In this document: in pieces, positions 9,071-26,290 of the stretch
Numbering within the stretch: the stretch's first letter is position 1
How the letters are laid out: every line of letters begins with the position of its first letter
Assembly (NCBI RefSeq): GCF_007747215.1
Contig: NZ_CP036273.1
Coordinates: forward strand, 2,340,322 to 2,404,321
Direction: 5' to 3'
Source: Urbifossiella limnaea
GTDB taxonomy: Bacteria > Planctomycetota > Planctomycetia > Gemmatales > Gemmataceae
Length of the DNA: 64,000 nucleotides
The notes under the pieces: generated by a model
What the model saw: only the letters and a program-made list of their open reading frames with translations
What the model was told of the DNA's origin: nothing
The model's database searches: none
Program-made: the position numbers and the translations under genes

Positions 9071-9172
9071 GTGGGCAAGGGAAACAATTCGCAGGGCAAG
9101 GAGAAGAAGAAGCCGAAGAAGGACGCGAAGGCCGCGCCGGTGAAACCGGTCCCGCCGCCGAAGAAGAAGTGA
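9071..9172 (+). CDS. Tiny Lys/Pro-rich protein (33 residues)
   Basis: A GTG-started frame encodes a protein that begins MGKGNNSQGKEKKKPKKD and ends PVPPPKKK. The GKGNNSQGKEKKKPKK pattern resembles short basic proteins I have seen annotated as hypothetical in other bacteria, including planctomycetes. That resemblance, and the lack of any other gene in the gap, is the evidence. A purine-rich GAGGGGGATGA lies just upstream as a possible ribosome site. An overlapping ATG at 9066 opens an Arg-rich frame that looks like a shadow. The function is unknown; the charge suggests nucleic-acid or ribosome contact, which is only a guess. Confidence 0.55.
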   Translation: MGKGNNSQGKEKKKPKKDAKAAPVKPVPPPKKK

Positions 9173-9192
9173 CCGCGCCGTAGAATGCGGGG

Positions 9193-9265
9193 GCGGGGGT
9201 GGAGTAGACAGTCAACTCGCCGGGCTAATCCCCCGGAGCCGTGGGTGCGACACCCACCCCCCGCA
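9193..9265 (+). tRNA. Atypical tRNA-like gene, anticodon position reads AAT
   Basis: A full cloverleaf of 73 nt can be drawn with no mismatches: acceptor GCGGGGG/CCCCCGC, T8, D stem GAGT/ACTC, anticodon stem CCGGG/CCCGG, T stem GTGGG/CCCAC, and A73. The anticodon loop is CTAATCC, so positions 34-36 are AAT and position 37 is C rather than a purine. The T loop TGCGACA lacks the normal TTC, and the D loop AGACAGTCA lacks the GG that would pair with it, so both partners of the usual elbow contact are changed. A11:T24 and three G-C pairs in the anticodon stem recall initiator tRNAs. CCA is not encoded. It may be a functional odd tRNA, a non-coding tRNA-like RNA, or a decayed copy. Confidence 0.6.
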
Positions 9266-9286
9266 CTCCGCTCCCGTCCGACGCAC

Positions 9287-9327: not shown

Positions 9328-9335
9328 TCGTCGAG

Positions 9336-9407
9336 AGCCACCTGTCGGATTTGAACCGACGACCCCCGCTTTACGAAAGCGGTGCACTACCGCTGTGCTA
9401 AGGTGGC
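9336..9407 (-). tRNA. tRNA-Thr (anticodon CGT)
   Basis: The cloverleaf is complete: acceptor GCCACCT/AGGTGGC, T loop TTCAAAT, anticodon stem CCGCT/AGCGG around TTCGTAA, giving anticodon CGT for codon ACG. CCA is not encoded. It ends nine bases before a strong intrinsic terminator on its strand and faces the endonuclease IV gene divergently. Confidence 0.95.
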
Positions 9408-26217: not shown

Positions 26218-26290
26218 GGCCCTGTCGTCTAGAGGCCTAGGACACGACCCTTTCAAGGTTGAGACCGGGGTTCGAATCCCCGCAGGGTCA
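26218..26290 (+). tRNA. tRNA-Glu (anticodon TTC), integration target
   Basis: The cloverleaf is complete: acceptor GGCCCTG/CAGGGTC with one G-T pair, D stem GTCT/GGAC, anticodon stem CGACC/GGTTG around CTTTCAA (anticodon TTC), and T arm CGGGG-TTCGAAT-CCCCG. CCA is not encoded. Its last 19 bp are the start of the 138-bp direct repeat bounding the integrated element. The tRNA is left intact by the insertion, and the integrase stop codon lies inside it on the other strand. Confidence 0.96.

Follow-up and report, generated by a model that had tools for sequence, protein, structure and literature searches.

The closest described counterparts of the RNA considered here are the bacterial initiator tRNA, the non-proteinogenic tRNAs of staphylococci, a tRNA fragment of archaea, and the tRNA-Ile(GAU) with which bacteria read AUU. 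An A11:U24 base pair is given as a feature of the bacterial initiator in the available portion of one source (PMC4611024). In staphylococci, an extra tRNA-Gly in which the GG at positions 18–19 is replaced is thought to escape translation, and the accessible part of the same paper describes EF-Tu-weakening pairs, A49-U65 and A51-U63, in these non-proteinogenic tRNAs (PMC4052509). In archaea, a Val-tRNA fragment binds the 30S subunit and hinders aIF1A, as far as the available text of the report goes (PMC11009984).

The element described here lies in a window of 64,000 nucleotides from Urbifossiella limnaea (contig NZ_CP036273.1), the window being the whole stretch of DNA that was analysed. It resembles the bacterial initiator in that initiators come closest to it by covariance model in most loci, in its A11:U24 pair, and in a G-C-rich anticodon stem, but it differs in a paired G1:C72 end, in carrying AAU with C37-C38 rather than CAU with A37-A38, in a D loop without GG, and in G55 of the T loop. 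Loss of GG at 18–19 compares in part with staphylococcal tRNA-Gly: 22 of 26 aligned copies of the element have no GG, but column 18 stays G in 26/26 copies, whereas the staphylococcal tRNAs replace both G18 and G19. The element further differs from them in its apparent derivation from an initiator, in strong T-stem pairs, and in its neighbours, which are infA and a small gene here called KGN. The archaeal RNA is likewise tRNA-derived and sits on the small subunit, where binding of the element is only proposed; unlike the element, which is a complete cloverleaf with a gene to itself, it is reported as a fragment located at the decoding site. Finally, the element's anticodon would pair with AUU, as that of tRNA-Ile(GAU) does, but C37, the changes at the elbow, and a variable discriminator set the two apart, and tRNA-Ile(GAU) is not among the element's closest sequence relatives in pairwise alignment.

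The element and its family

The window copy occupies 9193..9265 on the forward strand (bases 1–72 plus discriminator A73), as delimited by direct reading, ARAGORN, RNAfold, and the conserved family. Its acceptor stem (GCGGGGG/CCCCCGC), D stem (GAGU/ACUC), anticodon stem (CCGGG/CCCGG), and T stem (GUGGG/CCCAC) form a perfect cloverleaf with the 7/4/5/5 stems of elongator-tRNA geometry. By direct reading and alignment, the D loop (9206..9214, forward strand; AGACAGUCA) has no GG and keeps one G. The anticodon loop (9225..9231, forward strand) is CUAAUCC, with AAU, C37, and C38, and is complementary to the stretch GGAUUAG of the 16S rRNA 790 loop. The T loop (9246..9252, forward strand), UGCGACA, has no UUC and combines U54, C56, and A58 with G55 in place of U55, and the canonical elbow of G18G19 with U54U55C56 is thereby absent from this copy. 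The perfect stems, both altered loops, and AAT with C37 had all been pointed out in an initial annotation of the DNA, and reading of the sequence confirms them.

RNAfold recovers the cloverleaf at −38.8 kcal/mol (z −2.97; 2 of 200 shuffles equally stable). ARAGORN labels the element tRNA-Ile(aat) at 9193–9266, while the Rfam tRNA model leaves it unmatched at the gathering score and also at E≤1. Its convergent neighbour, at 9335..9407 on the reverse strand, is a canonical tRNA-Thr(CGT) by both ARAGORN and Rfam. In the stretches of the organism's own genome that were read, outside which lies a tRNA-Glu at 26218 of the window, ARAGORN found 71 distinct tRNA genes, including two copies of the element. 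The T-arm motif TTCRA occurs in 69 of the 71, the two exceptions being the element copies; this count alone was used as a yardstick, a crude D-loop GG pattern having failed seven other tRNAs of the genome.

A covariance search in Gemmataceae had been proposed as a check in the initial annotation; covariance searches in Gemmatales and in Planctomycetia together give a family of 28 copies scoring at least 70 bits in 22 genomes. The model used (R1) was built from 11 copies, so that 11 of the 28 are rows of the model and 17 are not. Among 102 Gemmatales genomes, R1 gave 25 matches of at least 70 bits in 19 of 95 Gemmataceae, with the next match at 60.2 bits, and none at that threshold in the seven genomes of the other Gemmatales family. 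A set of 397 Planctomycetia genomes added three further copies, all in one second family (f3), probably Isosphaeraceae, at 92.8, 90.8, and 81.0 bits, with the next match at 62.0. A DNA search of 59 relatives had matches in seven genomes. The distribution is patchy, and some genomes have several copies; G001 has three, one of which is identical to the window copy over 74 bases within different flanks.

A wider taxonomic spread found no support in searches with a strict sequence pattern. The contigs of GTDB r220 held 16 such stretches, 15 of them corresponding to the Gemmataceae contigs of the family above, in a scan that was not exhaustive and missed complete-genome carriers found otherwise; the sixteenth, in Pseudomonas, is a chance match without covariance support at E≤1. 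A strict pattern in 392 genomes across the phylum found the window's own genome alone, and a match on contig C203 of G068 (L036) was rejected for having no cloverleaf. Three sequences are clearly decayed (L104, L136, and L154), and partial damage affects 4 of the 28 copies (G001c, which misses one acceptor base; G015b, with a short D arm; G002b; and G081). The copy in G194 is intact and has the anticodon AGA and a canonical elbow. We found no description of this RNA in the literature searched, which took in few subscription journals and preprints.

Comparison of the copies bears directly on selection. Since G002b and G081 have indels, 26 of the 28 copies were aligned, giving 23 distinct rows. 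In these rows, 99.6% of stem cells are paired, and 7 of the 21 pairs have changed on both sides; none of 500 shuffles reached these pairing and covariation values, and sliding one partner by 1–3 columns lowers pairing to 63% or less. In the anticodon loop, U33, A34, and C38 occur in 26/26 copies, A35 and U36 in 25, and C37 in 24, so that the anticodon is AAU in 25 copies and AGA in one. The T loop is held just as closely (U54, C56, G57, and A58 in 26/26, G55 in 25/26), and the D loop is looser, with T13/A9/G3/C1 at column 19. Position 73 is A in 9 copies and G in 17. The compensating stem changes and near-fixed loops point to selection on the RNA, and the element is very probably a real, selected gene.

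A tRNA pseudogene or an integration fragment is, by the same evidence, a very improbable account. It would agree with the failure of the Rfam tRNA model, with the decay of some copies, and with the frequent annotation of mobile-element leftovers as tRNA genes that is described in the accessible part of one source (PMC9897764). Against it stand the full length and perfect stems of the element, its covariation, and its conservation across two families; the family as a whole has none of the pairing loss, truncation, or lack of constraint expected of pseudogenes. The initial annotation had argued that the element was not randomly decayed, as the 28 copies and the seven covarying pairs of the alignment bear out, and had held that an absence of both expression and conservation in relatives would speak for a pseudogene; as to conservation, the two families show the opposite.

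Initiator kinship and the question of decoding

The same model connects the element with initiator tRNAs. Among the best of the lower-scoring R1 matches, all 11 loci read are tRNA-Met(CAT), and 20 further lower matches, picked by hand, comprise 17 initiators, one other tRNA-Met, and two tRNA-Pro. A11 faces U24 in 25 of the 26 aligned copies, and the anticodon stem has three consecutive G-C pairs, with G29–G31 in 23 copies and A29:U41 in the other three. We also observed A29:U41 in 16 of 17 canonical initiators read (L214–L232), leaving two of the usual three G-C pairs. Two other initiator features are missing, namely the unpaired 1–72 end, where G1:C72 is paired in 23/23 distinct rows, and the CAU anticodon that gives MetRS identity.

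Other comparisons qualify this kinship. In a crude pairwise alignment, the G003 copy agrees with an initiator (L106) in 59 of 76 columns and the window copy in 54 of 77, within a sample where initiators are over-represented because the covariance model fetched them. When each copy is compared only with the tRNAs of its own genome, tRNA-Ser and tRNA-Tyr rank above tRNA-Met for the window copy (crude alignment), and tRNA-Gly(TCC) does so for the G031 and G067 copies; R1 itself scores a tRNA-Lys of the window genome at 45.9 bits and the genome's own initiator at 42.9. FastTree places 25 elements (the set without G001c, G002b, and G081) in one clade with a support of 0.974. The clade that joins them to all 22 initiators also takes in 5 of 37 other tRNAs, and the tree therefore does not single out initiators as the sister group. 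By most of these sequence tests, initiator tRNAs nonetheless appear to be the nearest relatives, and the initiator-like character claimed in the initial annotation has held up. As a separate observation, only one initiator-type tRNA gene occurs in the own-genome stretches read (L200, G000:C1:5010832-5010902), with one T-stem C more than the initiators of relatives, either real or an assembly error.

The elbow can be followed through the copies. G194 has GG and UUC; G129, G132, and G015b have GG and UGC; and the other 22 aligned copies have no GG. Judged from these comparisons, the elbow change is stepwise. The coupled change of both elbow partners that had been proposed thus stands as to the two changes, which are real, and falls as to strict coupling. 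An initiator-type tRNA with CAU in G083 (L071) likewise has a T loop with UGC and a D loop that lacks GG.

Clearly, an anticodon of AAU in 25 of 26 aligned copies raises the possibility of a translating tRNA for AUU (or for both AUU and AUC, if A34 were converted to inosine), be it a tRNA-Ile(AAU) or an alternative initiator. The tRNA-like 3′ tail, the strong T stem, the initiator kinship, and the linkage to infA would all fit. However, tRNAs normally carry a purine at position 37, where 24 of the 26 copies have C, and an isoleucine tRNA would be expected to have a fixed discriminator; both C37 and the variable position 73 argue against decoding. AUU is already covered by the genome's own tRNA-Ile(GAU), one intact copy has AGA, and the G1:C72 pair replaces the unpaired end of an initiator. 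Such a paired end also counts against formylation, given the initiator features set out in the available portion of PMC4611024.

The start codon of infC offers a further comparison. This gene is a classic case of an AUU start, and its starts were inferred from N-termini and Shine-Dalgarno sequences at 51 Gemmataceae loci (L213 and L234–L283), most of which apparently begin with AUC or AUU. The inferred start is AUC in 17/17 readable genomes among the 19 with the element; AUU was seen only in element-less genomes, in at least 10 of 34 by eye. The uniform AUC argues against a role for the element in AUU starts, and a main reading built on AUU initiation of infC was rejected for this reason.

A translating tRNA is for these reasons distinctly unlikely. 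With C37, a discriminator of A or G, and a paired 1–72 end, the element is probably non-decoding, as judged from its sequence. The initial annotation had offered two readings, and the first, that the RNA may read AUU, was not borne out; the second, a non-translational tRNA-like RNA, is the more likely of the two. This also calls for caution in annotation, where the tRNA-Ile(AAT) call of ARAGORN corresponds to the reading that the evidence disfavours.

A tRNA that does not decode could conceivably serve as an aminoacyl donor for a non-ribosomal reaction, such as cell-wall or lipid aminoacylation or peptide ligation, in the manner of staphylococcal tRNA-Gly. The tRNA-like 3′ tail would suit such a donor, and GG 18–19 is lost in the staphylococcal tRNAs as well, according to the accessible part of PMC4052509. 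However, the EF-Tu-weakening pairs A49-U65 and A51-U63 are missing in 22 of 23 distinct rows, where G49:C65 and G51:C63 each occur in 22 (one row has A51:U63), position 73 varies, and the recurrent neighbours are infA and KGN. We regard an aminoacyl donor as improbable.

Gene ends, partner genes, and mobility

The element resembles other tRNA genes at its 3′ end. An encoded tail of C74-T75 (9266..9267, forward strand) follows the discriminator, giving the NCT of canonical tRNA genes in these genomes. Across the family, C74 occurs in 18/22 copies and T75 in 21/22; in the canonical tRNA genes read, counted without element copy G081, the figures are 40/51 and 41/51, the tail being mostly N73-C-T and not CCA.

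At the 5′ end, a survey of TAnnnT spacing picked out a −10-like hexamer, TAGAAT, at 9181..9186 on the forward strand, which ends 6 nt before base 1. Of the 29 copies listed, which comprise the 28 and the decayed G002c, seven have a TAnnnT box at exactly this spacing, the window's among them; in canonical tRNA genes the position of the box varies, and 1 of 56 has it at 6 nt. A rough binomial for the fixed spacing gives 1e-10, some of the flanks possibly being related. This arrangement suggests that transcription may begin with the first base of the mature RNA. In 11 of the 28 copies, a stop codon lies within 10 nt upstream (seven of infA and four of KGN), and none of these has the box; these 11 copies are presumably co-transcribed with the preceding gene.

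In the window, the conserved partner gene is KGN, a lysine-rich ORF of 33 codons with a GTG start at 9071..9172 on the forward strand (VGKGNNSQGKEKKKPKKDAKAAPVKPVPPPKKK). It encodes 31–35 residues in the aligned set, begins MGKGNNSQGKEKKKPKKDAK, and is conserved as a protein, with no match in Pfam or NCBIfam; by its sequence, it is an undescribed gene for a basic micro-protein. The other recurrent partner is infA, whose product was identified as IF-1 (TIGR00008, E 2.5e-30), the bacterial counterpart of aIF1A. In all, 19 of the 28 copies adjoin infA or KGN on the same strand. KGN lies at most 50 nt upstream in 9/28 and infA at most 10 nt upstream in 7/28; the G081 copy falls between infA and KGN, and the G002a and G031 copies are just upstream of KGN. 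The remaining nine are G000b, G002b, G003, G015a, G064, G065, G066, G070a, and G071, and in G003 a KGN gene is 2.1 kb from the element. The infA gene also adjoins KGN in G070 (L155).

KGN and the element tend to share genomes. With weak matches counted, 18 of the 19 genomes that carry the element have KGN, against 10 of the 76 that do not (Fisher p 2e-11), a count in which carriers are favoured, as all ten rows of the KGN profile came from element loci; G001, with its three element copies, has no KGN match. In f3, where at least 41 of 45 genomes were included in the element covariance search and the other four had no match in the DNA search, strong KGN matches occur in 3 of the 45, which are the three carriers, and their strength is partly by construction since the f3 profile held the carriers' three sequences. 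Three other f3 genomes have weak KGN-like matches. Beyond KGN and infA, the neighbourhoods are mostly non-syntenic, with orthologous groups such as G067/G068/G079/G080 and G064/G065 as exceptions. Common descent inflates such counts and may account for part of the linkage between KGN, infA, and the element. We looked for a KGN-like gene upstream of canonical initiators and found none. In five relatives, the initiator gene was seen 5–33 nt behind an S19-like gene (L069, L072, L077, L078, and L079), which we take to be rpsS.

The patchy distribution, with several copies in some genomes, might suggest a selfish or phage-associated tRNA gene, mobilised along with the DNA next to it and of no use to the cell. 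KGN and the element occur together at non-syntenic sites in the second family, and one IMG/VR contig carries the element. Furthermore, the copies of G066 and Zavarzinella formosa (G015a) are situated inside prophage modules or next to them. These modules have endolysin and tape-measure genes, to which that of G015 adds portal and terminase genes, and a tape-measure gene from the same family is close to G001c. Related prophage genes thus stand beside element copies in three genomes (L094, L088, and L083). On the other hand, such a gene accounts poorly for compensatory changes, fixed loops, and the 19 copies by infA or KGN. Neither G066 nor G015 has a repeat of the element within about 48 kb, and prophage integration into the element was discarded on this ground. 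No match to the element occurs in 50,697 phage and 72,556 plasmid records. The viral scan gave three stretches, of which one is real (L124, which is the G066 copy) and the other two were set aside as chance, and 600 pattern stretches for KGN in viral contigs yielded none that was confirmed. A mobile gene without cellular function is therefore unlikely; some spread by phage is plausible and leaves the covariation unexplained. The window genome also has a dense array of tRNA genes that are divergent in sequence, with many anticodons and several low Rfam scores (L206, G000:C1:1566637-1568373), which resembles the tRNA clusters of phages or mobile elements.

A possible role at initiation or the 30S subunit

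Considering all of the above, a conserved, non-decoding paralogue of the initiator tRNA, expressed and selected, has in our judgement about an even chance of being the whole explanation. The family, its conservation and covariation, its initiator kinship, and its linkage are seen in the sequences; expression, lack of decoding, and the site of action are what we infer. An initiator tRNA gene would have been duplicated in Planctomycetia and then have stopped decoding, keeping the initiator body (A11:U24 and the G-rich anticodon stem) and gaining a fully paired 1–72 end, a loosened elbow, and the new anticodon loop CUAAUCC. Its RNA would come either from the −10 box, with base 1 as the start, or from transcription that continues out of infA or KGN.

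Given the initiator body and the linkage to IF-1, the likeliest role of the RNA would be at initiation or the 30S subunit, and action there has, in our estimate, a little less than an even chance. There the RNA might work beside IF-1 and the KGN peptide, which is basic, as an effector of tRNA-like shape rather than an adaptor for amino acids.

One way in which it could conceivably do so is by pairing with the ribosome. Read as its reverse complement, GGAUUAG, the loop CUAAUCC matches positions 741–747 of the organism's own 16S rRNA and has no other perfect 7-nt site in that molecule. Including C39, CUAAUCC(C) pairs with GGGAUUAG at 740–747, and these 8 nt are the element's longest complementarity to 16S. 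We take these positions to be about 784–791 of E. coli, which places them in the 790 loop on helix 24, a site that serves IF3 and the joining of the subunits. Against the pairing, only five of the seven complementary nucleotides are unpaired in the hairpin predicted for h24. The change from the initiator loop CUCAUAA to that of the element consists of C34A, A37C, and A38C, each of which adds a pair, and the loop variants of G092 and G015b keep the match through G-U pairs, whereas it is lost in G194 and G081. Of the genome's 63 distinct anticodon loops, two have a perfect 16S site anywhere, namely that of the element and that of one tRNA-Arg.

Chance must be weighed here. Of 3000 random 7-mers, 259 had a perfect 16S site; the chance that a random 7-mer matches the 790 loop is 7/16384, and several ribosomal sites would have been equally impressive. 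In 23S rRNA, there are seven 8-nt matches to stretches of the element, two of which overlap part of the loop. The h24 stretch is to our knowledge near-universal, and covariation is thus uninformative on the pairing. The view of the element as a tRNA-shaped antisense RNA of the ribosome that pairs with the 790 loop, a post hoc proposal drawn from complementarity, is possible though rather unlikely. If true, the element would be an initiation factor or anti-association factor that consists of RNA and is produced along with IF-1.

As for the initiator paralogue as a whole, its confirmation would establish a dedicated, conserved family of RNA genes that arose from an initiator tRNA retired from decoding and is linked genetically to IF-1 as well as to a basic, as yet undescribed micro-protein. 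The covariance model and the partner gene provide the means to find more members. Most directly, the family would allow a test of whether bacteria control initiation or the 30S subunit with whole tRNA-shaped RNAs.
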